Part shown: positions 8,760 to 23,960 of the stretch, in pieces
How positions within the stretch are numbered: position 1 is the first letter of the stretch
Layout of the letters: each line of letters begins with the position of its first letter
Source: a virus
Virus record (IMG/VR): IMGVR_UViG_3300049847_000049
Coordinates: 1-24,287 of that record
DNA length: 24,287 nucleotides
Direction: 5' to 3' (one strand)
The notes under the pieces: generated by a model
Told to the model about the DNA's origin: nothing
Database searches by the model: none
What the model saw: only the letters and a program-made list of their open reading frames with translations
Translations under genes and position numbers: made by a program

Positions 8760-9962
8760 ATGGCTGGTGAGGTTACTCTCACTACTGTTAACAACATCAT
8801 GAAGGAGGTCTACCAGGGCCGAATTCAGGATCAGTTACAGAATGAAGTTGTCGGTATTAAGCGTATCGAGAAGTCGTCTAACGGAGTTAGCCACGAAGTT
8901 GGTGGTAAGTACGTTACCTTCCCGGTTCGAGTTAAGCGTAACCCCTCGATTGGTTACCGCGCTGAGTTAGGTCAGTTACAGAACCCGGGTTTCCAGGGCT
9001 ACGCATCTGTCCGAATCGGTCTTAAGTACGGTTACGGTCGTATCCGTATTTCTGGTCAGACGATGGAACTTGCTAAGACGAACGCTCAGGCGTTCGCCAA
9101 CGCTATGGACTACGAGGTCAACGGCCTTAAGTCTGATATTGGTAAGGACGTTAACCGTATCTTCTACGGTGACGGTACTGGTTTCCTCTGCACGGCGACT
9201 GTTTCTGGTACTACGGTGAACTACCTTGACGTTGCAACCGCTCAGTACGTTAACATTGGTGACGTTGTTGACGTTGTTAACGCTGCTGGTGCGGTTCAGG
9301 GTACTTCAGGTCGTACTGTTACAGCGATCAACCGTACGTCGAGCCCGCAGCGCGTTACCTTCGATGGTGCTACTGTCTCGCCCGTTGCTGGTTGGGGCCT
9401 TGTTCGTACTGGTAACTTCGGTCTTGAGCCTAACGGTTTAGGTTCGATTGTTAAGGACACGGGCACGCTCTTCAACATCGATCCTGCTGTTGAGGCAACG
9501 TGGAAGGCGATTAACAACAACAACTCTGGTACTAACCGTGCTCTCTCTGAGGGCCTGATGATTAAGATGACCGACGACGCTCGTGTTAACGGTGGTCAGA
9601 CGTCGCTTATCCTCACGTCTCTCGGTGTGCGCCGTGCTTACTTCAACCTGCTTACTCAGCAGCGTCGGTACACGGACACTAAGGAGTTCTCGGGTGGTAT
9701 TCGTGGCCTTGCATTCAACAACGGTCGTGAGATTCCCGTTGTTGAGGACGTGGATGCGCCTCCGAACAAGTTATGGTTCCTTGACGAGTCCTCGCTTACT
9801 ATCTACCGCTCTACTGACTGGTCGTGGTTAGACACTGACGGTAGTGTGTGGAAGTGGCTTACGGACTACGACGCATTCCAGGCTGTTCTCCACAGTTACT
9901 GGGAGATTGGCGTTAACCGTCGTAACGCTAACGGTGTCCTCGCGGACGTTACCGAGGGCTAA
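8760..9962 (+). CDS. Major capsid protein (HK97-type fold, probable)
   Basis: The protein is 400 residues. AAGGAG at 8748-8753 lies six bases before ATG 8760, a strong site. The N-terminal part (LTTVNNIMKEVYQGRIQDQL) and the segment with YGRIRISGQTMELAKTNAQA match the coat-protein pattern following a scaffold. A beta-rich insertion at about residues 143-205 (YVNIGDVVDVVNAAGAVQGT) resembles the extra domain seen in several capsid families. The C-terminal part has TSLGVRRAYFNLL and EIPVVEDVDAPPNKLWFLD, typical of the A-domain. The gene is immediately followed by a long perfect hairpin (9962-10020). Confidence 0.9.
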   Translation: MAGEVTLTTVNNIMKEVYQGRIQDQLQNEVVGIKRIEKSSNGVSHEVGGKYVTFPVRVKRNPSIGYRAELGQLQNPGFQGYASVRIGLKYGYGRIRISGQTMELAKTNAQAFANAMDYEVNGLKSDIGKDVNRIFYGDGTGFLCTATVSGTTVNYLDVATAQYVNIGDVVDVVNAAGAVQGTSGRTVTAINRTSSPQRVTFDGATVSPVAGWGLVRTGNFGLEPNGLGSIVKDTGTLFNIDPAVEATWKAINNNNSGTNRALSEGLMIKMTDDARVNGGQTSLILTSLGVRRAYFNLLTQQRRYTDTKEFSGGIRGLAFNNGREIPVVEDVDAPPNKLWFLDESSLTIYRSTDWSWLDTDGSVWKWLTDYDAFQAVLHSYWEIGVNRRNANGVLADVTEG

Positions 9963-10035: not shown

Positions 10036-10593
10036 ATGGCCGTCCTTACTACGGATATTCTTTATAAGTTTTCAGTGGCTGCTGCGGCTGGTAACACTAC
10101 GGCTGGAACCCCCGCAGGATCTATTGGTGACCAAATCTCTACTACACAGTTAACTGATAACAGCCTTAACAACCTGTTTGACGACGTTACAGGTGATGAG
10201 AATGCTGCAAGCGCTGTGGTTGATTATCGTTGTATTTTTGTACACAATGCTCATGCCACCCTTCCCTGGCAGAACGTTGTTGCTTGGATTAACGCTGACG
10301 TTGCTAACGGTGTTGACGTTGCAATTGGTATTGATCCGGCTGCTGCTTCCGCTATTGGCTCGGGTTCGGCACAGGCCGCGACACCTGCAAACGAAACAAC
10401 AGCACCCTCAGGCGTAACGTTTACTAACTACGCTTCCGGTTCCGCTGTGGACATTAAGTCCCGTGGTCTTTCTGTAGGAACTATTGCCGCAGGCTCCTGT
10501 AGGGCTATTTGGATTCGTCGTACGTCGGCTAACCGCGCTGCTCTTAACAACGATGGTACGACTATTCGTTGTGAGGGCGATACGGCCGCGTAA
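10036..10593 (+). CDS. Virion structural protein, possibly capsid decoration
   Basis: The protein is 185 residues, with AAGGAG just upstream of ATG 10036. It is rich in Ala, Gly, Thr and Asn, with beta-strand pattern. The segment VVDYRCIFVHNAHATLPWQN followed by VVAWINADVANGVDVAIGID is typical of phage structural proteins found near capsid genes, and the C-terminal IWIRRTSANRAALN also fits. Its place as the first gene after the capsid hairpin suggests a decoration or minor head protein, though a tail role is possible. No enzyme motifs are seen. Confidence 0.65.
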   Translation: MAVLTTDILYKFSVAAAAGNTTAGTPAGSIGDQISTTQLTDNSLNNLFDDVTGDENAASAVVDYRCIFVHNAHATLPWQNVVAWINADVANGVDVAIGIDPAAASAIGSGSAQAATPANETTAPSGVTFTNYASGSAVDIKSRGLSVGTIAAGSCRAIWIRRTSANRAALNNDGTTIRCEGDTAA

Positions 10594-10889
10594 TGGTATG
10601 CGCTTTTGAGGGGTGTGAAGCGCCTATTAAAATCAGGGGACACTGTACTAAGCATTACGACTACCTAAGGCATAACGGTAAACTAGAGGTTACACCTAGA
10701 AAACACCGTAATCCTACAGTGTGGGACCCTAACGTTAAGGCCGCTGACTATAGAACACGTATGGAAGCGGCTAAGGCTAAGGTTAATCAAGCACTATTAA
10801 TGCTTAGGTACCCTGGTTCTATTTTTCCTGCAACACTAGAAGAAGTATTAGACGAAGCACTACAGGAGTTGGAGGTAGACGGTGGCTGA
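10593..10889 (+). CDS. Small zinc-finger protein
   Basis: The protein is 98 residues, starting by TAATG overlap with the preceding gene. The N-terminus CAFEGCEAPIKIRGHCTKHY places C3, C8, C17 and H21 in a compact CCCH-like zinc finger. In my experience this finger commonly precedes HNH homing-endonuclease domains in phages. No HNH domain follows. The remainder is a basic linker (TPRKHRN) and an acidic helical tail. It may be a stand-alone DNA- or RNA-binding factor, or the remnant of a homing endonuclease. It lies inside the virion-gene block, where such a protein is unexpected. Confidence 0.65.
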   Translation: MVCAFEGCEAPIKIRGHCTKHYDYLRHNGKLEVTPRKHRNPTVWDPNVKAADYRTRMEAAKAKVNQALLMLRYPGSIFPATLEEVLDEALQELEVDGG

Positions 10890-11721
10890 TCTACATACAA
10901 ACTTAGCAGTTAGTCTAGTGGCTACGGCTCCGTCTCCCGCTACGTCTGGTACCTCATTAGTTGTTACTGCTGGTGAAGGCACTCAGTTTGCTAGCGTACC
11001 ATGCAATGCAGTAATATGGCCTGCTGGTAGTGTTCCTACTAAGGCCAATGCTGAGATTGTTCGTATTACGGCTAGGTCTACAGACACACTTACTATTACT
11101 AGGGCACAAGAAGGTTCTACTGCTCGTACTGTTGTTGTTGGTGATCAAATTGCAATTGCAATTACGGCTAAGACATTAACTGATATCGAAGATGTTATTA
11201 ACGGAGTCACAGAGCCCGGAGACCACGGATACTTGTCATGGAACTTTGATCCGATTATCTGCCAGTCTACTTCGACTGTACTCGGTGCTAACGGAACCTG
11301 TTATGTTCAGAAACTTCGTATTGATAGGCCTACTTCGGTCACTAACATCAATACGTGGGTTTTAACTGCCGGTGCAACGCTTACTGCTTCTCAGTGTCTT
11401 GCTGGTCTATATGACGGTTCTAAGAACTTAGTTGCTGTTACTGGTGACCAGTCGGCTACTTGGAACAGTACAGGCCATAAGACTATGGCTCTGACTGGTG
11501 GGCCGTTCACGTTGCAGCCTGGATACTACTACGTTGTTCTTATGGCTAACGGTACTACTCGTCCCGCATTCCTTCGCGCTACAGGTAACGCTCATAACGC
11601 AAACCTTGCTGCTGCAAGTAGCCGGTGGGCCTCTGCTGATACTGGACGTACTACTACACTTCCTGCTACGTTAGGTGCCTTTACTGCCACCGCTAACCCG
11701 TATTGGGTCGCTCTCTCTTAG
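10882..11721 (+). CDS. Minor tail / receptor-binding protein (probable)
   Basis: The protein is 279 residues from GTG 10882, with GGAGG at 10871-10875 six bases upstream. The N-terminal 100 residues (LVVTAGEGTQFASVPCNAVI, then NAEIVRITARSTDTLTITRA and QEGSTARTVVVGDQ) are the attachment-domain pattern common to minor tail proteins of actinophages. A short helix (LTDIEDVINGV) leads to a C-terminal beta-sandwich of about 150 residues (from YLSWNFDP, through LAGLYDGSKNLVAV, to LQPGYYYVVLMANGT). That C-terminal pattern is typical of receptor-binding tips. It probably attaches the tail to the host surface. The stop is embedded in the next gene's ribosome site. Confidence 0.75.
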   Translation: MADLHTNLAVSLVATAPSPATSGTSLVVTAGEGTQFASVPCNAVIWPAGSVPTKANAEIVRITARSTDTLTITRAQEGSTARTVVVGDQIAIAITAKTLTDIEDVINGVTEPGDHGYLSWNFDPIICQSTSTVLGANGTCYVQKLRIDRPTSVTNINTWVLTAGATLTASQCLAGLYDGSKNLVAVTGDQSATWNSTGHKTMALTGGPFTLQPGYYYVVLMANGTTRPAFLRATGNAHNANLAAASSRWASADTGRTTTLPATLGAFTATANPYWVALS

Positions 11722-11729
11722 GAGGCATC

Positions 11730-12608
11730 GTGTTCGGTGGTGTCTCTTTCGGTGGCGCTTACTTTGGTGGTACGCCTAATGGTGTGACTAGTCTTACTGC
11801 TGTAGGTAAGAACTTACAGTTAGTCTGGAACGACAATGCCTCTGTAGGAAAGAACCTCCAACTAGTTTGGAACGATAGGGCTACAGTTGCTAAGAATAGT
11901 CAACTAATTTGGAACGTCTTAACTACTGTCACTAAAAACTCGCAATTAGTATGGAATACACGCGCCAACGTAGGTGTAAACTTACAACTTCTGTGGAACG
12001 ATAGAGCAACAGTTGCAGCGAATATTCAGTTGCTCTGGAACGTCTTAGAATTAGGTCTTACTGCTGTAGGTAAGGACTTAATACTACTGTGGAATGACCG
12101 AGCAGTAGTTGCTAAGAATCTTAGTCTGCTGTGGAACGATCGAGCAGTAGTCGGGACTAGTTCTCAATTAGTTTGGAACGTTCGTACTACTGTAGGTAAA
12201 ACTGTGCAGTTAGTGTGGAACAACCGTTCTCTCGTTAACAAGGACGTACAGTTAGTCTGGAATGACCGCGCTACTGTAGGTAAGCCGGTACAGTTAGTGT
12301 GGAACGTTAGCAGCACGATTGGCAAGACATTACAATTAGTTTGGAACAACCGCTCTAACGTAGGTAATAACGTTCAACTAGTTTGGAATGTTCGTTCCGC
12401 TATTGGCAAGAATTTAATCCTTGTCTGGAACGTCAATCAGAATGTAGCATGGATTGAAGCAGTCGTACCGGGCGGCTCATGGTCAGAGCAAGCAACTAGT
12501 GCTGCAACTTACGCAGAACAAACAGTGGCAGCGGGTACGTACTCGGAAGTATCTCGACCTAACGGTACATGGGTAGAGGTAGTTGTAGCCCCTAACACTT
12601 GGAGTTAA
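11730..12608 (+). CDS. Tail-associated repeat protein: 15 x 14-residue plus 5 x 10-residue repeats
   Basis: GTG 11730 is preferred over an in-frame TTG at 11703 because AGGAGG lies at 11720-11725, giving 292 residues. After a short Gly/Phe-rich start (FGGVSFGGAYFGG) come 15 units of consensus VGKNLQLVWNDRAT, with LVWN nearly invariant. The sixth unit carries four extra residues (LGLT-type spacer), dividing the array into six and nine units, and each block opens with LTAVGK. Then five exact ten-residue units follow, each starting aromatic-x-Glu (WIEAVVPGGS type), and the protein ends in WS. Short beta-strand repeats suggest a solenoid or fibrous tail spike. It lies between a receptor-binding-type protein and the adaptor, so a minor tail or fibre role is likely. 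No enzyme motifs. Confidence 0.85.
   Translation: MFGGVSFGGAYFGGTPNGVTSLTAVGKNLQLVWNDNASVGKNLQLVWNDRATVAKNSQLIWNVLTTVTKNSQLVWNTRANVGVNLQLLWNDRATVAANIQLLWNVLELGLTAVGKDLILLWNDRAVVAKNLSLLWNDRAVVGTSSQLVWNVRTTVGKTVQLVWNNRSLVNKDVQLVWNDRATVGKPVQLVWNVSSTIGKTLQLVWNNRSNVGNNVQLVWNVRSAIGKNLILVWNVNQNVAWIEAVVPGGSWSEQATSAATYAEQTVAAGTYSEVSRPNGTWVEVVVAPNTWS
11802..12443 (+). repeat. Array of fifteen 42-bp coding repeats
   Basis: Fifteen in-frame units of 42 bases encode the 14-residue repeat. One unit carries a 12-base insertion. The DNA copies are diverged at many third positions while GTA-GGT-AAG and the TTA-GT-TGG-AAC core recur, so the array is old and held by protein-level selection rather than being a fresh expansion. 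Confidence 0.9.
12450..12599 (+). repeat. Five 30-bp coding repeats (aromatic-x-Glu decapeptide)
   Basis: The five units start at residues reading WIE, WSE, YAE, YSE and WVE with an exact ten-residue spacing, ending just before a final Trp-Ser and the stop. The DNA is well diverged between units. Confidence 0.85.
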
Positions 12609-12609
12609 G

Positions 12610-13023
12610 ATGTACGTTCCCGCTGAGGACGGGTCTTGGGTTAACGAAAAGACTGCACGAATTGCAGAGTTAATCCAACAGTACGATCATCGTTTAGAGT
12701 TACGGTGGATTAGGCCCGATCAGCGAGTGCCGGGTGAGCCAGAGTTTGCAGTTATCGAGAAGAGTGATGACGGTCGTGAGTACGTAGCGTTTCTTATCCA
12801 GAACGAAGATTTTGTGGATGAGAGACTACTTGGCCGCATCTATGCAGCAGACAACAAAGATAAGAATGTCGGTGACGAAGCCGAGGCCCATAACCGAGCA
12901 GTACGTGCAGTAGTTGAGCAAGAGAAGCGCGACGAAGATGCTGCTGTTAAGGACTTAGCCTTGTCTATGCTTAAGAGTCAGTTACACACTTACCGGCACA
13001 ATGGCCGAAAGATTGATCTGTAG
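12610..13023 (+). CDS. Hypothetical acidic protein, phage-conserved type
   Basis: The protein is 137 residues from ATG 12610, with GGAG at 12601-12604 overlapping the upstream stop. The segment IAELIQQYDHRLELRWIRPD followed by PEFAVIEKSDDGREYVAFLI resembles small proteins often found in the virion-gene block of actinophages, whose function is unknown to me. The C-terminal half is charged and helical (AEAHNRAVRAVVEQEKRDED). It lies just before the adaptor gene, suggesting an assembly or connector-associated role. Confidence 0.7.
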   Translation: MYVPAEDGSWVNEKTARIAELIQQYDHRLELRWIRPDQRVPGEPEFAVIEKSDDGREYVAFLIQNEDFVDERLLGRIYAADNKDKNVGDEAEAHNRAVRAVVEQEKRDEDAAVKDLALSMLKSQLHTYRHNGRKIDL

Positions 13024-13031
13024 GAGGTTCT

Positions 13032-13679
13032 GTGTTAGTCTCTGAAATCGCCACTCGCGTTAAGCGTCAGTTTGGCGACGAAGGTGGAGCGCAGATTACT
13101 GATGCAGATATTATTCGTTGGGTTAACGACGCTCAGACTGAGATTGCTGTAGCAAACGACTTACTGCAAGTTTCTGCGACTACGGCTACCGTTGCAGGAA
13201 CGCAGAAGTACACTATTCCTTCTAACTTGCTTATCTTAAGGGCCGCTAAGTGGAAGGGCCTTAAGTTACAAGCAATTACGATGGAAGAAGCAGACGCTAC
13301 AATGATCGCCAACACTTCCCCGGCTGGCGACCCTACTCAGTTTTGGCAGTTTGCTCGACAGGTGTATCTGTGGCCCATCCCCTTGGCTAACGGCTCCACT
13401 GATCTTACGCTTTATTTTACCCGTCAGCCTGTTCAAGTTACTGTAGTCGGGGATACTCCTGAGTTACCTGTGCAGTATCACCCGCGCATCGTGGAATACT
13501 GTATTGCTCAAGCCGCAGAATTAGATGACAACTTAGCGCAGTACCAGTTAAAAATGGCGCAGTTTGAGAACGGCGTTACTAAGTTAAAGGACAACGCTGA
13601 TTGGGACTCACAAGACACATATCCCACAATTAGCGTGAGTCCTCGGGACTACGGAGAGTACGCTGAGTTCTATGGCTAA
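13032..13679 (+). CDS. Head-tail adaptor protein (probable)
   Basis: The protein is 215 residues from GTG 13032, with AGGAGG at 13022-13027 overlapping the upstream TAG stop. The N-terminal helix with ADIIRWVNDAQTEIAVANDL, followed by TIPSNLLILRAAKWKGLKLQ and FWQFARQVYLWPIP, is the pattern of podovirus-type adaptor (tail tubular A-like) proteins. The C-terminal ELPVQYHPRIVEYCIAQAAE fits too. Adaptors sit under the portal and seat the nozzle. The gene directly downstream is the nozzle, overlapped by eight bases (ATGGCTAA), the same junction as between the portal and its neighbour. Confidence 0.82.
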   Translation: MLVSEIATRVKRQFGDEGGAQITDADIIRWVNDAQTEIAVANDLLQVSATTATVAGTQKYTIPSNLLILRAAKWKGLKLQAITMEEADATMIANTSPAGDPTQFWQFARQVYLWPIPLANGSTDLTLYFTRQPVQVTVVGDTPELPVQYHPRIVEYCIAQAAELDDNLAQYQLKMAQFENGVTKLKDNADWDSQDTYPTISVSPRDYGEYAEFYG

Positions 13680-15876
13680 GCGACCCGTTACCGTAGGACC
13701 GTGGCCTCGGGGTATTAACCTCAAGGACGACTCACAACTTATCCAAGACAACCAACTAGTTGATGCTCTCAACGTAGTTATTCAGACTGACGGTTCTGTA
13801 ACTAATCGTCCAGGAATGCAGGCTATTTCTGCTACTGATATCGGTACTACGATTACGCAAGGATTAGAACGATTTGATGTTCTTGGTATAGTTGGTGATA
13901 ATACTTTTCTTGTAGGGAAGTCTGCACTTAATCCTAGTTGGATTACGTGGGAGACTCAAAAAATCTATAAAGGTAAGTTATCTACTGATCTTAATAGTCA
14001 GAGTATTATTTGGACAGACACTGGATTTACTCCTGCTGTTGCTCTTGGCGCTGAAAAGTTAGCCGCTACTGACGCAGGTTTTGAAACTAGTTTAGGTACG
14101 TGGCCTACTAGCGGTACAGGCTGCACTATTGCGTTAGATACTACTTCCTCTAATGCTCGTACAGGTAATAACTCTCTTAAGATGACTTTAACTGCTACTG
14201 GTGCTAGTTTAAATAACCCTACTAACTATCCGGTAACAGCAGGACTAGAGTATACTGTCTCTGGATATGCTAAGACTGTTACTAGGTCTTGTATTATATT
14301 TATTCGTCTATCTTTTTACGATAGCGGTGGGACTCAAATTTCTAGCATTGGAAACCTTGCTAATATTACTGCCCCTATAAATACATACACTAACATAAAT
14401 GGTAGAGGGGTTGCTCCTGTAGGGGCAGTTAATGCCCGTATTACTATTGGAGTTTCTACTGGATCAGGTGCTCTATCAGGCGATATAATCTATTGGGACG
14501 ACTTTAGTATCAAACAAGGTTGCTCTGGGTACTACGTTAAGGCCATTACATACTTAGATGATACATATTTAATTCCTAATTCTCGATCTAATACTATGCT
14601 TAAGACTAATAATAGTTCTTTCTCTAGTATGACCCCTATTACGGTTCCTGAAGGCCTAGACTATAACCCTCAAAACTACTTCAAGGCTCCAAGTGTTGAT
14701 CTTTGTTTTGTGTGGAAAGACAGACTTTTTATATGTTTTCAAGATACTGTATACTACAGTAAGGCCACTGATTTTACTAACTGGAGTACCGCTCCAGGTT
14801 TAGGTGGATTTTTTATTGTAGGTAATGATAGTTCTGGTAACTCTGACGGTAACTATATCAGTTCAACTATTGTAGTGGGAGACGCTCTCTATATTTTTAA
14901 AACTAAGGGACTTTACGCGTTTACATTTCAAACTGATCCTGGTACTGATGGGTATTTAAAGGTAGTTTCTAGTGCTCAAGGCACTACTTCCGCAGTAGAG
15001 TGGAAGGGAAGAATCTTTACTTGTAATACTAACTCTGTCTATGAATACGTATCTGGACAGTTTATTGATATCGGTAGGCAGTTAAACATTCTTAATGGCT
15101 CTAGTGGGTATAACACTGTTACAGGTAGCGGATACATTATCTCTACTTTACACGTTATGAATGACTATCTAGTTGTTGGGCCTCTTATTAAAGATACGGC
15201 TAGCATTAGCGGTAGATACTACGCTATGAACCTTAATAATGGTGCATGGTCTAAGTGGGACGTGTACAAGGGTGCTCTTCATCTTGTAGACGCAGGAGAT
15301 ACAGATACTGTAACTTGTCAAGGACCTATGCACAACATAGTTGGACCTCAACACGGTATGTACTATCTAGGCTCTAGTGAGTTAGGTACTCAAGTAATTT
15401 TTATGAACTATCGAGAGGCCGCTAATAAGGTAGCGGACGGGCTTAGTTCAGCACAAAGACTTCCTCGATACTATTTCGAGACTAAGATGTTTACGTTTAA
15501 CAACGAGGTCCAGTTTAAGAAGGTGTATCGTGTACAGTTTAACCGGAACCTCGGAATTTCCGACGGCGGAATCAGCACGACGTTTGCTAAGGGAGGGTTC
15601 GGCGTTCGATACGTCAAGCCCGCAGACTTACAAGTCTCTAGCACTACCGCCACACGAATTCAGAGCCTTCTTACAGACCACTTTGGAAACCTTAAGGCAG
15701 GAAGTACGTTCCGGTGCTTATCGTTCTCCATGTTCTATGAATACTACTACGTAAACCAACAGAGCATTACCATTGATGATACAGTTCGATCATATCGGTT
15801 CAGGATTAACAGTATGATTGCGTACGTTGATCTTAAGGCTGATTTTGCAAACGTCCAGACCCTAGCGGTTACGTAG
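13672..15876 (+). CDS. Tail nozzle protein with inserted carbohydrate-binding module
   Basis: The protein is 734 residues. The N-terminus (PWPRGINLKDDSQLIQDNQL followed by LNVVIQTDGSVTNRPG) is the hallmark of podovirus nozzle (tail tubular B-like) proteins, which form the tail tip below the adaptor. At residues of about 127-283 a galactose-binding-like beta-sandwich of the CBM_4_9 kind is inserted (DAGFETSLGTWP at its start, GDIIYWDDFSIKQG at its end). The nozzle body resumes after it (YLDDTYLIPNSRSN, then WKDRLFICFQDTVYYS). The middle of the gene is clearly AT-richer than its ends: the bases 13861-13920 are 35% GC by eye, while 15541-15600 are 57%. The module may bind cell-wall sugar. Confidence 0.8.
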   Translation: MAKRPVTVGPWPRGINLKDDSQLIQDNQLVDALNVVIQTDGSVTNRPGMQAISATDIGTTITQGLERFDVLGIVGDNTFLVGKSALNPSWITWETQKIYKGKLSTDLNSQSIIWTDTGFTPAVALGAEKLAATDAGFETSLGTWPTSGTGCTIALDTTSSNARTGNNSLKMTLTATGASLNNPTNYPVTAGLEYTVSGYAKTVTRSCIIFIRLSFYDSGGTQISSIGNLANITAPINTYTNINGRGVAPVGAVNARITIGVSTGSGALSGDIIYWDDFSIKQGCSGYYVKAITYLDDTYLIPNSRSNTMLKTNNSSFSSMTPITVPEGLDYNPQNYFKAPSVDLCFVWKDRLFICFQDTVYYSKATDFTNWSTAPGLGGFFIVGNDSSGNSDGNYISSTIVVGDALYIFKTKGLYAFTFQTDPGTDGYLKVVSSAQGTTSAVEWKGRIFTCNTNSVYEYVSGQFIDIGRQLNILNGSSGYNTVTGSGYIISTLHVMNDYLVVGPLIKDTASISGRYYAMNLNNGAWSKWDVYKGALHLVDAGDTDTVTCQGPMHNIVGPQHGMYYLGSSELGTQVIFMNYREAANKVADGLSSAQRLPRYYFETKMFTFNNEVQFKKVYRVQFNRNLGISDGGISTTFAKGGFGVRYVKPADLQVSSTTATRIQSLLTDHFGNLKAGSTFRCLSFSMFYEYYYVNQQSITIDDTVRSYRFRINSMIAYVDLKADFANVQTLAVT

Positions 15877-15885
15877 GAGGGTAGT

Positions 15886-16854
15886 ATGTCACAGGCAGGC
15901 GCATCAAATCCTTATGCCGCAGGTGCTAGGGTTTACCGTGGTGGTAGTAATGCAGCAACGCAAGGCGCTGTTGACCCCACGGGATACATTGATAGGTCAT
16001 TAAATAAGCAGCAACCCGGTTACACTCCTGGTGTAGCGGCTGGCGCTCTTAACACTCTTAGGAGTGCCAGCCCCTCACTACAAGGACAAGGTGGAGGTAG
16101 CGGACCCGCACCTATTACGCCCCCTGCACCTCCTACCCCTGCACCTACACAGTCGTCTACTACAGGCACTATCAGTTGGAAGATGCCTATAGATTACGAC
16201 TTGCAGATGCAGGGTATCCAGGCTAATAGCGACTATAACGACCTACTTACTCAGATTACAGCAATTAAGAATAACGCGGCTCAAAACGAAACTGTTGGCC
16301 TACGTGACGCTGCTGTTAATGAGACTAAGCAGACTCGTCGAGATACTAACGTTGCAGCGTACCGAGGTATGGCTCGCAGTAGTGGATATGTTAACCAAGT
16401 AGATGAGACTCAGCAGTTTTTTAATAACCTTAGGACTGATGTTGAGTCTAGGTTTATGGCCGCACTTAACGGAGCAGACTCTCAAGGACTTGCAGGTAAG
16501 TCTAGGTTAGACTCTACTATGGAGTCTATCTACAGCGAGGCTGCACGAAGGTTAGCAGAGAAGTTAGCGAATGATCCTAATGCTGGCGCTCTTGATCCTA
16601 TTACTGGTCAGCCTGCTACGCCTCCTAAGACTGGTCAGAACGGTCAAGGGGGACAAGGGGGACAAGGGGGACAAGGTACCCCTAAGCCTGCTCCTACTCC
16701 GCCTCCTAAGATTCCTACTACTACTGGTCCTATTACTCCTCCTAAGGCTCCGGCTAAGCCTAAGCCTAAGAAGCGTGGATACACTAACGCACAGTTAGAA
16801 GCAGCAAAAAAGCGTAAGAAAGCAAATCAGCCTAGTGGTTCGATCGGAGGTTAG
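15886..16854 (+). CDS. Probable internal virion / ejection protein, low-complexity
   Basis: The protein is 322 residues from ATG 15886, with AGGAGG at 15875-15880 overlapping the nozzle stop. The N-terminus is Gly/Ala-rich and there is a Pro/Thr linker near residue 80-95. A helical middle (DLLTQITAIKNNAAQNETVG, then YRGMARSSGYVNQVDETQQF) resembles internal structural proteins that sit below the portal. The C-terminus holds four GQG units from a 9-bp repeat, a Pro/Thr-rich linker and a lysine-rich tail (AAKKRKKANQ). The basic tail may contact packaged DNA. Gene position between nozzle and giant ejection protein supports an ejection role, by inference. Confidence 0.6.
   Translation: MSQAGASNPYAAGARVYRGGSNAATQGAVDPTGYIDRSLNKQQPGYTPGVAAGALNTLRSASPSLQGQGGGSGPAPITPPAPPTPAPTQSSTTGTISWKMPIDYDLQMQGIQANSDYNDLLTQITAIKNNAAQNETVGLRDAAVNETKQTRRDTNVAAYRGMARSSGYVNQVDETQQFFNNLRTDVESRFMAALNGADSQGLAGKSRLDSTMESIYSEAARRLAEKLANDPNAGALDPITGQPATPPKTGQNGQGGQGGQGGQGTPKPAPTPPPKIPTTTGPITPPKAPAKPKPKKRGYTNAQLEAAKKRKKANQPSGSIGG
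16642..16677 (+). repeat. Four tandem 9-bp units (GGACAAGGG)
   Basis: The first unit reads GGTCAAGGG, the next two are identical GGACAAGGG, and the last ends in T. They encode Gly-Gln-Gly four times. Because the unit is a multiple of three, gain or loss changes linker length without shifting the frame. Confidence 0.9.
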
Positions 16855-21300: not shown

Positions 21301-22806
21301 ATGGACCCTGCACAGTTAATCTGGGACCTACAGGTTGCTACTGAGAAGGCTCTTGCGCGTAAGGCTACTGTAGAGAGTATCGTTCAGAACTTTGGTATCG
21401 CTACAGGAACTACTTCTCAGGTTATGGACCCGTTAGCACAAAACCTAGTTAACAAGCACGGTTACCGACCGCACTCTATAGGTACCGAGCAGTTTATCTT
21501 TGATCCTGAAACGTATAAGCAACTTGATAAGATTCAAGAACTATTTTCTAGTCCGAAGATGATGGAAACGTTCGGAGAATACGCGGGTAGTATTACGCAG
21601 GCTTGGAAGCGTACGGTTACTGTTCGCAACCCAGGCTTCCACGCCCGTAACACTTTCGGAGATATCTTCGTCAGTTGGCTTGATGGAGTAAGCGGTGTCC
21701 ACGGTGTGCAATCGCACCGCATGGCGTTACGTACTGTTAGGAAGTTCCGCAACTTAGTTGATGCGGAGGACCCGATGGTTAAGGCTATGGGTCAGCCTAA
21801 CATGATGCAAGCGTACCAGGATGCTAAGCGAACTGGTCAGTTAGGTGAGAGTCACAACGCAGTTCTGTTTAAGAAGAACGGTAAAGACTTTACTATCGGT
21901 GACGTGTGGGCCGCATACGTTAACGAAGGATTGCTTAGTGGTTTCGCTAACACGGAGTTCGGAGCAGTCTTTAAGCAGCCTAAGAACATCGCTGCTACAG
22001 GCGTCGGGCAGGCTGTAGGTAAGGCTGACGCTAAGGTTCTTGCGTTCTCTGAGGCTCGTGAAGATGTTTTCCGACTCGCACACTTCATTGACATTATGCG
22101 TAAGACACCTATTAAGGATATTGAAAAGGCTGCTGCGGAAGCAGGAGCCAGAGTTCGTAAGTTTCACTTTGATTACTCAGACTTTACTATGACTGAGAAG
22201 TTAGCGTTTGCGCGAGTGTTCCCGTTCTACAAGTGGACTCGTAAGGCGTTCCCGCTTATGGTTGAGTCTCTGTTTGCTACTCCGGGTAAGATGCTTATGG
22301 TGCCTAGGGCGTCACAGGCTATTGGTGTAGCAGGAGGATTCGGCGGTAATAGTCCTGACGTAGTTACTCCTGACTGGATCACTAGCCGAATGCTGGCACC
22401 TGTTATGGGTCGCTCGGATGCTACTACTTACGCAGGCGTTGCGCTACCTTATGATGCCTTACGTGCTGTAGGAGCCCCTGGTGATTCGGTGCTTGGAATG
22501 CTACACCCTGGAATTAAGGGCGTACTTGAAGCATCTATGGGTCAGAAGGTTAACGGTCAAGAGTTTGACTTAAAGAATTACTTGACAGGACTACTGCCTC
22601 AGAGTAACATGTTAACTAAGCAACTCGGAGGAACGGGAACGCCCGAGCAGTTGGCCTCGTTCCTGACTGGTATTACGTTTACGCAGAATAACAGTAAGAC
22701 CATTCAGTCCGAACTCATTAAGCGGAAGGATAAGGCTTATGGCGCTATCCCCCCTAAGCCCCCAAAGCCCACAATCCCAGACTACGGGGCAAAGCCAGCC
22801 GGGTGA
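18346..22806 (+). CDS. Giant internal virion / ejection protein
   Basis: The protein is 1486 residues. ATG 18346 is chosen over an in-frame ATG at 18322 because GGGAG at 18334-18338 lies six bases before it. The N-terminal region has FALDVGMDPTTYIGVGAI, which I associate with large internal phage proteins. Long helical charged stretches follow. The C-terminal third contains NPGFHARNTFGDIFVSWLDG and FARVFPFYKWTRKAFPLMVE, both recurrent in large podovirus ejection proteins. No lysozyme or protease motif is seen inside it, unlike T7 gp16, but two wall hydrolases are encoded immediately downstream. It probably forms part of the trans-envelope DNA channel. Its last 68 bases overlap the next gene. 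Confidence 0.75.
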   Translation: MPNSKPTVPSYTQHSYAYWANFYASPSDLVISKATGSNPVAPVGNSRNSLANLNKDIQGLNYKGAVIGVIKAGPEVRKASGLTREMLDPKVQQLYDQTLAAEAKAGTGGEDPSFLTRTFDVLSRLNYAIAGAYKQTITEEQKANGSTDINDLSYIPVVGSSFWKSLTQGQALWDGLAGYNKVTFSGVLDQAHPEMNDIAKGVLGFALDVGMDPTTYIGVGAIKNVSAKVIGEGAKIATDAEATANHLADFFKADGTRVDKVHELMVDSWEKSGLAPSNNFFTALKTVDFTDPKAVEEFLTSGVGSHPGRAEGAARQGLSERAKTTQVVTKFLEATSTMMHEHLYLTHLDELKAAAIKDGTLIPTTALVPDSMVRTLTYEALTMPEAEVVGKINTLHTKRGILESQISTAKKELTGREQSQIIDGLQSQKAAVNAELKTLITETRIDMGSQDVLTAIRTLSNSDPAFRAVDAAYKKAHDVMLHDPRYYMGPEGAKVSMYRSIQTEQQLLDFAAGQLSHVRFGASGTLPVKRGIRGASAGDSVMKDSLIGQDVARAQKMTAQDYINMHPVLKSYQKALRRRAELESQRAQMIADRVLQATNDVNLPEAARLAKYRKLKDWRDVAQTFVNIYGAERKATKAAETAAMSADSVGDIGGTVKAIKAKEALGRGSGSVNKALENARREIQYRMSKGELSVEDLRAFLRENKIVAPDLLHDFENLMPETSRILHFGEGFKPLTVKQMTAGGMDVQKAITANGMVMHSLEVTAKGHADEMTKLVLETANDLLVRSMTLQARKAFGLRVGFLGNGPVVASMAMPELFDKLIATAYKSNIVAASIKGFNKALVSSAGMDKDLARIRGREAGRTTEFIKINGLRIYQKFQHVAPSERMTAFQQLMRTDIKNYTNPQVVDDIRYELNLIAEKFGDQAFSGLREPLSLSEVNKWIPTPKRRLRENQKHGWTISGGSLGEGEDPVEWLLNSMRLANLHDMDPAQLIWDLQVATEKALARKATVESIVQNFGIATGTTSQVMDPLAQNLVNKHGYRPHSIGTEQFIFDPETYKQLDKIQELFSSPKMMETFGEYAGSITQAWKRTVTVRNPGFHARNTFGDIFVSWLDGVSGVHGVQSHRMALRTVRKFRNLVDAEDPMVKAMGQPNMMQAYQDAKRTGQLGESHNAVLFKKNGKDFTIGDVWAAYVNEGLLSGFANTEFGAVFKQPKNIAATGVGQAVGKADAKVLAFSEAREDVFRLAHFIDIMRKTPIKDIEKAAAEAGARVRKFHFDYSDFTMTEKLAFARVFPFYKWTRKAFPLMVESLFATPGKMLMVPRASQAIGVAGGFGGNSPDVVTPDWITSRMLAPVMGRSDATTYAGVALPYDALRAVGAPGDSVLGMLHPGIKGVLEASMGQKVNGQEFDLKNYLTGLLPQSNMLTKQLGGTGTPEQLASFLTGITFTQNNSKTIQSELIKRKDKAYGAIPPKPPKPTIPDYGAKPAG

Positions 22807-23332
22807 GTTCTTTAAGTTACTTACTGACGCACACGCTAAGTCACAAGAGCGACAGAATAAGAATAAGAGTTTAATGTCGGACCTTGCTGCTCAGTCCCCC
22901 GCCTCAAGCGGGGGACTGAGTACGCAAAGTATCGGAGCAGTCTCTACTACGGGGGGCGCTGGTAATGGGTCAATCGTCAATGTTGCAAAAAGTTATATTG
23001 GCGTGCCTTATGTGGCCGGCGGTCGTACTCGTAAGAGTGGGTTGGATTGTTCTGGATATACCGCATTGGTTCTTAAAGAGGCTTTGGGTATCACAGTACC
23101 TGCTCTCTCTGGTAAGCAAGCACAGGGAGGTCAGGGTGTTAACTCGCTTAAGGACGCTCAGCCGGGCGATCTACTATTCTTTGACTTAGGACCCCGAGAC
23201 ACGTATAAGGGTATCGACCATGTTGCCATTTACCTAGGTAACGGGAGGATGCTTGAGGCACCTAGACCGGGCAAGTCTATTGGTGAGGTTAACGTGTACG
23301 CTGCTCCTAAGTTTATTCGGAGGTACGGTTAA
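22739..23332 (+). CDS. NlpC/P60-family peptidoglycan endopeptidase
   Basis: The protein is 197 residues. ATG 22739 has GGAAGGA at 22724-22730, eight bases upstream, giving a 68-base overlap with the giant protein gene. Residues 1-75 form a Gln/Ser/Pro-rich linker. The NlpC/P60 domain runs from about residue 78 to the end, with catalytic C104 in LDCSGY, H161 in GIDHVAIYLG and E173 in MLEAPRPG. The 12-residue His-Glu spacing equals that of the Cys-His-Glu triad of mycobacterial RipA. Such enzymes cut stem-peptide bonds such as D-Glu to mDAP. Position after the ejection proteins suggests a virion-carried entry enzyme rather than the lysis endolysin. A 13-bp hairpin lies in the linker-coding part. 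Confidence 0.88.
   Translation: MALSPLSPQSPQSQTTGQSQPGEFFKLLTDAHAKSQERQNKNKSLMSDLAAQSPASSGGLSTQSIGAVSTTGGAGNGSIVNVAKSYIGVPYVAGGRTRKSGLDCSGYTALVLKEALGITVPALSGKQAQGGQGVNSLKDAQPGDLLFFDLGPRDTYKGIDHVAIYLGNGRMLEAPRPGKSIGEVNVYAAPKFIRRYG
22890..22920 (+). repeat. Perfect GC-rich inverted repeat inside the NlpC/P60 gene
   Basis: CTCAGTCCCCCGC (22890-22902) and GCGGGGGACTGAG (22908-22920) form a perfect 13-bp stem with a five-base loop. It lies in the flexible linker coding region, just before the catalytic domain. No T-tract follows. Confidence 0.9.
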
Positions 23333-23333
23333 T

Positions 23334-23960
23334 ATGGCCCTTGCTGGTACTGATAAAGGCTATATTGGCGGCGTAGATTTAGCCAAGGTTCATACTGCTG
23401 CTAAACAGCGTATGGCTAGTAAAGACGCACTTATCAAGAAGTTAACAGCGGCTGAGGGGCCTGTAGGTAACTCAGTTAGCGCACCTAGTGCTCCTACAGG
23501 GCGCCCTCAGAACATGCCCGCTACAGGTGGTCAGTTAGTTAACTGGCTTAAGCAGGCAGGCTTTCAAGGCGAAGAATTACGCAAAGCGTGGGCTGTCGCT
23601 ATGCGAGAGTCTAATGGTAGGCCGGGAGCATTTAACGGAAACGCTGCAACCGGAGATAAGTCCTACGGATTATTTCAGATCAACATGCTTGGTAGTATGG
23701 GTGCTTCCCGTATGAAGCAGTTTGGTCTGAGTAGTGAGAAGGACCTGCTAGACCCGCTAGTTAACGCTAAGGCTGCGTACCAAATGTCCCGCGGCGGTTG
23801 GTCACCCTGGGATATTGATACTTCTGGTTATAACTACACTCATAACCGAGCGTCATGGCAGAAGCACTATAACGCTTACATGAAGTATTACAATCAATTT
23901 CCTAGTGAAACGCAGAACTTAGCCATGCGTACAGCGGCTGCCAAGAAGATCAGTAAATAA
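23334..23960 (+). CDS. Lytic transglycosylase / lysozyme-like virion protein
   Basis: The protein is 208 residues. ATG 23334 follows GGAGG at 23319-23323. An in-frame ATG at 23253 lies inside the NlpC/P60 gene and lacks support. The N-terminal 60 residues are a Lys/Ala helix and a Pro-rich linker. The catalytic domain contains AWAVAMRESNGRPGAFNG, where the glutamate is the likely acid, and SYGLFQINM, the paired motif of the lysozyme-like/SLT fold. The C-terminal WSPWDIDTSGYNYTHNRASW also fits actinophage examples. It would cleave glycan strands, complementing the peptidase encoded just upstream. It is the last gene of the rightward operon. Confidence 0.85.
   Translation: MALAGTDKGYIGGVDLAKVHTAAKQRMASKDALIKKLTAAEGPVGNSVSAPSAPTGRPQNMPATGGQLVNWLKQAGFQGEELRKAWAVAMRESNGRPGAFNGNAATGDKSYGLFQINMLGSMGASRMKQFGLSSEKDLLDPLVNAKAAYQMSRGGWSPWDIDTSGYNYTHNRASWQKHYNAYMKYYNQFPSETQNLAMRTAAAKKISK

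Follow-up and report, generated by a model that had tools for sequence, protein, structure and literature searches.

A 14-residue tryptophan repeat array and its co-inherited 185-residue partner as a putative two-gene virion module in unrelated phages

Introduction

The closest annotated family to the repeat array analyzed here is PHROG 6079, labeled 'tail protein', whose 605-position profile is without a described structure or mechanism. Our array resembles it through a match to its repeat region, but the partner protein described below is no part of the profile. A second likeness is found in KVP40-like Vibrio phages, where the C-terminus of the tail-sheath stabilizer gp15 is an array of 14-residue, Trp-centered units on a virion protein and a homologue of the partner is encoded adjacent to it. 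Unlike our array, this extension is fused to a T4-type gp15 core (PF16724), belongs to a contractile-tailed phage, and carries a DWxxR rather than an LVWN motif. T4-like fiber proteins contain another 14-residue WN class, SANWNSxYTTV (loci L016, L019, L035, and others), which shares the 14-residue spacing with our units but has Tyr at +4/+5, an Asn/Ser-rich core, and contigs without the 185-aa partner. These repeats were put aside as a different class and used as the negative control.

The partner itself falls into PHROG 13135, a family that carries neither an annotated function nor a link to arrays. Tail-fiber assembly chaperones of the Tfa type are small proteins whose genes adjoin the fiber gene and are co-inherited with the fiber. 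The partner, however, has no sequence match to them, can lie upstream or downstream of its array, and tracks the repeat motif. Neither the repeat nor its partner was described in the open-access papers that we searched.

Results

The array gene and its neighborhood

The window, by which we mean the whole 24,287-base stretch of DNA that was analyzed, is a virus contig from an uncultured SU10-type short-tailed phage. A major capsid protein, a portal, and an adaptor of the SU10 type were all found on it (PF17236, PF23899, and PF24175), and the closest cultured relatives of the capsid protein, at 41–45% identity, are those of Arthrobacter, Microbacterium, and Cellulosimicrobium phages. The array gene (11730–12608) is positioned between the genes for the major capsid protein (8760–9962) and the head-tail adaptor (13032–13679; PF24175, E 6.7e-25). 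The same interval holds the gene for the 185-aa partner (10036–10593), a tail-fiber-like gene (10882–11721; phrog_8469) immediately 5′ of the array gene, and a gene for a 137-aa protein (12610–13023) between array and adaptor, with all of these genes on the plus strand.

Several minor features of this region were also recorded. Between the partner and fiber genes, at 10593–10889, sits an inserted gene for a 98-aa protein whose match to HNH endonucleases is weak (phrog_5351, E 6e-5); it was not seen at this position in the sister phage G008. The head-closure/nozzle-like protein (13672–15876) contains an extra domain of ∼150 residues (approximately residues 120–272, phrog_16363) that is absent from the 53–62% identical copy in G008. 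The protein at 15886–16854 has GGQ repeats encoded by a perfect 9-nt tandem, CAAGGGGGA, in 3.6 copies (16645–16676), and the structural module ends with overlapping genes for an NlpC/P60 peptidase (22739–23332) and an SLT lysozyme-like protein (23253–23960).

The open reading frame list starts the array gene at TTG 11703. Since an AGGAGG Shine-Dalgarno sequence (11720–11725), which overlaps the stop of the preceding gene, lies 4 nt before GTG 11730, the GTG is the likelier start and gives a protein of 292 aa. At its N-terminus, this protein has a short stretch rich in Gly and Phe; the fifteen units of 14 residues follow (11790–12431), and roughly five (W/Y)xE repeats of 10 residues each make up the C-terminus (residues ∼240–292; 12450–12605). 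The original prediction, made from the letters of the DNA, had described fifteen units in blocks of six and nine around a four-residue insertion, and our measurements agree: the W-W spacings read 14 five times, 18 once, and 14 eight times, with the insertion at the junction of units 6 and 7 (12042–12053), and the lag-14 self-identity is 115 residues compared with a shuffled mean of 23.8 and a maximum of 40 in 2000 shuffles. The near-invariant core and the LTAVGK opening of both blocks were likewise as described, the core being (L/V)xL(V/L)WN with Leu at −2, Trp, and Asn in 15 of 15 units and Val, Leu, or Ile at −1. The alternation of Asp/Asn/Val and Arg proposed for the residues after WN holds loosely, as the first of them is mostly Asp, Val, or Asn and Arg comes next in only 10 of the 15 units. 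In relatives, insertions of 1–5 residues occur at the same within-unit place as the four-residue insertion of the window.

A DNA pattern for four consecutive units gave nine matches in the window and none in 100 shuffles; Tandem Repeats Finder, run on the window, did not detect the array. When two units share a residue, they use the same codon in only 40% of cases. Thus, the array is old and its protein sequence is kept by selection, and a recent DNA expansion is excluded. For the C-terminal 10-residue repeats, which along with the partner gene are absent from the original prediction, we counted 15 self-matches at lag 10 and 1–5 at other lags. The array proteins of G008 and of a second sister phage, G006, also end in 10-mer runs (WVEV in G008 and WTPV in G006).

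Comparison with G008, whose major capsid protein is 79–81% identical to that of the window, revealed the same gene order: scaffold, major capsid protein, 185-aa protein, array gene, 137-aa protein (72% identical), and adaptor. In G008 the array protein is a 900-aa fusion: a different domain of ∼510 aa, which occupies the place of the window's tail-fiber-like gene, forms its N-terminus, the units are more numerous than in the window, and a tail of the (W/Y)xE type forms the C-terminus. In G006 (capsid protein 63–65% identical), the array again adjoins the adaptor and the 137-aa protein is conserved at 37%. All three of these related phages have the array between the capsid and adaptor genes, and the syntenic orthologues retain both array and C-terminal tail. 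The N-terminal domain and the unit number thus change fast while the array, the tail, and the neighbors stay. G006 has, in addition, a second, diverged copy of the 137-aa protein between the partner and the major capsid protein (L201:7593–8042). We also noted that the 62-kb contig IMGVR_UViG_3300009176_000031 (L201 and L202) carries the genes for the SU10-type major capsid protein, the partner, and the array in two copies each, its capsid proteins being ∼64% and 53% identical to that of the window; this doubling reflects either two joined phages or a duplication.

Distribution of the array

The array matches PHROG 6079 with an E value of 7.5e-12 (residues 140–270 to profile positions 47–180). 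The match is confined to the repeats of the profile (positions 18–206 of 605), the rest being unmatched, and the same repeat region is matched by the arrays of L077, L022, L041, L008, L011, L109, and KVP40 gp15. No match to the array protein was found in Pfam, NCBIfam, or PDB sequences. A single-protein search of viral contigs also returned no match because the units are too diverged. We therefore searched IMG/VR using DNA patterns in which WN codons recur every 42 nt, which recovered many arrays; after removal of junk frames and of the T4-like SANWNSxY repeats, 33 non-redundant arrays were kept. Arrays of similar type are present in many unrelated phages, and, in agreement with the original prediction, the number of units varies between relatives. 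The spacing is nearly constant: across a larger set of 70 arrays with ∼1,400 units, 1201 gaps are exactly 14 residues, 100 are 15–19, and four are 12–13. A stricter pattern, applied to 84,980 bacterial and archaeal genomes, found essentially one real array (L129, judged by eye) among low-complexity matches, which indicates that the array is virus-centered.

A protein co-inherited with the array

The partner gene lies 1.2 kb upstream of the array gene. Its product matches phrog_13135 (E 2.4e-24), an assignment shared by nine of nine aligned members, and is 74% identical to the G008 copy. No relative was found in PDB or Pfam, and from its sequence the protein is probably compact and β-rich.

The partner was present in 26 of the 32 contigs with a window-type array and in only one of 27 contigs with other 14-spaced Trp repeats (Fisher p 5e-10); several of the six array contigs without it are fragments. 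When the search was reversed, with the partner as its starting point, a chain of at least four Trp residues at spacing 14 was present at 46 of 80 loci, on the same strand in all 46. At further partner loci, Tyr, Phe, or Ala replaces Trp (LSYDV in L245, LKYDI in L283, and xANVR in L261), and at some the array is located elsewhere on the contig. Approximately 15 of the 80 loci were without an array; most are short or truncated contigs, and the clearest exception is L234 at 54 kb.

Annotated phage genomes gave the same picture. Among 50,697 records, we counted 2052 with the KVP40 gp15 core, 52 with its C-terminal array, 54 with the partner, and 51 with both array and partner. The two other complete partner-bearing genomes, Vibrio phage EniLVp02 and Alteromonas schitovirus PT15-A5, encode a 14-residue array with Tyr or Phe in an adjacent gene. 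No partner match was found in the array-less SU10-type relatives Jasmine, Shocker, DS1, and ctEqG8. Aeromonas phage PhAER-6 has a 14-residue PYNLR repeat and no partner within 9 kb. As read from these genomes, pairing of array and partner is near-obligate across unrelated phages. Since the partner is upstream of the array in the window phage and downstream in KVP40 and PT15-A5, simple linkage alone does not explain the pairing. The motif subtypes QxxW, RxTTW, and DxRW also cluster on the partner tree, requiring 13 changes compared with 27 in shuffles, none of 200 being as low. This co-divergence of motif and partner could reflect co-evolution or plain long co-inheritance.

Structure prediction

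AlphaFold2 (AF2) gave the array protein a pLDDT of 55 from the single sequence and of 72 overall when 24 relatives were aligned in register. In the latter model, the array reaches 77–86 and consists of one strand of 11–12 residues per unit with turns of 2–3 residues, and the C-terminal 10-mer repeats are at 33–53. Foldseek searches of the array model against PDB returned no significant match (best E 0.2, TM about 0.1–0.2), and neither did a search of viral models with the single-sequence array model; SufB and an antifreeze protein, which came up as fold relatives of the first model, were rejected as their matches were not significant. Of the β-solenoid or fiber shaft that had been predicted from the sequence, the β-strand content is credible from the model, and the solenoid is not established because AF2 is reported to yield confident yet unrealistic β-solenoids for repeat sequences (PMC11795689). 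Neither disorder of the whole array nor membership in a well-characterized domain family, the two outcomes named as refuting the prediction, was found. Resemblance between units is somewhat greater at a distance of three than at two or four (Wilcoxon p 0.005–0.02), with no extra codon identity at that lag, a hint that units three apart may be in contact. A strict three-unit period stays no more than a hint, given that lag 6 is not raised and that the blocks found in relatives do not come in multiples of three units.

Discussion

The main new finding of this work is that the array has a co-inherited 185-aa partner, which makes a two-component structure likelier than a shaft standing on its own. 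The pairing suggests that array and partner together build an undescribed virion appendage. That the array is a tail-region protein, as originally predicted, is borne out for a virion module by the 'tail protein' label of phrog_6079, the fusion to gp15, and the position between capsid and adaptor genes. We give roughly even credence to a model, drawn from comparison of the genes, in which the two form a virion module with the array as a backbone of docking strands for the partner. Each unit would present a short aromatic β-strand motif, (L/V)xLxW(N/D)V, with Tyr or Phe for Trp in other phages, and the partner would dock on these strands, probably with one copy per unit, such that repeat number would set the count of displayed partner copies and the length of the appendage. 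Fourteen extended residues would span ∼46–48 Å, enough for one globular partner of ∼20 kDa, and the near absence of gaps shorter than 14, when longer ones do occur, fits 14 as a steric minimum. Further docking motifs may be provided by the C-terminal 10-mer repeats. The anchor of the backbone would vary by phage, with gp15 at the neck serving in KVP40-like phages, fiber- or lectin-like N-terminal domains elsewhere, and probably the neighboring fiber (10882–11721) or the head-tail region in the window phage; the role of the module may be surface display or adhesion. We further propose, tentatively and with somewhat less than even confidence, that a polyvalent string of 14-residue strands captures many copies of the partner by strand complementation, which would constitute an undescribed decorated filament in many unrelated phages.

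An alternative closer to the original prediction is that the array folds by itself into a β shaft or β-solenoid, with one coil or strand per unit and unit number as its length, and that the 185-aa protein caps it or is its dedicated folding chaperone, as Tfa-type proteins are to other fibers. This is a serious rival, although we consider it less likely than the docking model. One strand per unit at a pLDDT of 77–86 is what the model with 24 relatives gives, its best Foldseek matches, although not significant, are β-helices, and stacking of every third unit could produce the lag-3 likeness without extra codon identity. A β-solenoid or another self-folding repeat would likewise fit the near-constant period of 14 residues, and a dedicated folding chaperone would produce identical co-occurrence of array and partner. 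These points are offset by TM-scores of 0.1–0.2 with no significant fold match, by the solenoid bias of AF2 for repeats (PMC11795689), and by the flat lag 6, which leaves a strict three-unit coil unsupported. Moreover, a small chaperone alone leaves the common 14-residue period under WN, YS, YD, and AN sequences unexplained.

The near-obligate pairing across unrelated phages despite altered gene order, the co-divergence of motif and partner, the strong β propensity, and the near-invariant spacing of 14 residues all make unlikely a reading of the array as a flexible and largely disordered spacer or adhesive string whose Trp-Asn motifs bind host-surface or environmental ligands, with the partner as an independent neighbor in a mobile virion cassette. 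Such a string would nevertheless suit the highly variable repeat number, the variable N-terminal domains, the absence of a fold match, and the low confidence of the C-terminal 10-mer repeats (pLDDT 33–53). Slippage readily generates tandem repeats, and on this general ground a low-complexity expansion without selected function might be entertained; a same-residue codon identity of only 0.40 between units and the retention of array and C-terminal tail in syntenic orthologues render it highly improbable.

The proposed module of array backbone and docked partner would join two families of no known function, the phrog_6079 repeats and phrog_13135, in a unit that recurs in phages of short-tailed, T4-type, and other kinds. 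Were the partner to dock on every unit of the array, virions would possess a natural display system that is both multivalent and tunable, and the unexplained gp15 extension in the well-studied KVP40 group would be accounted for. The cultured KVP40 relatives nt-1, QD01, and CZ01 have Vibrio natriegens as their listed host.
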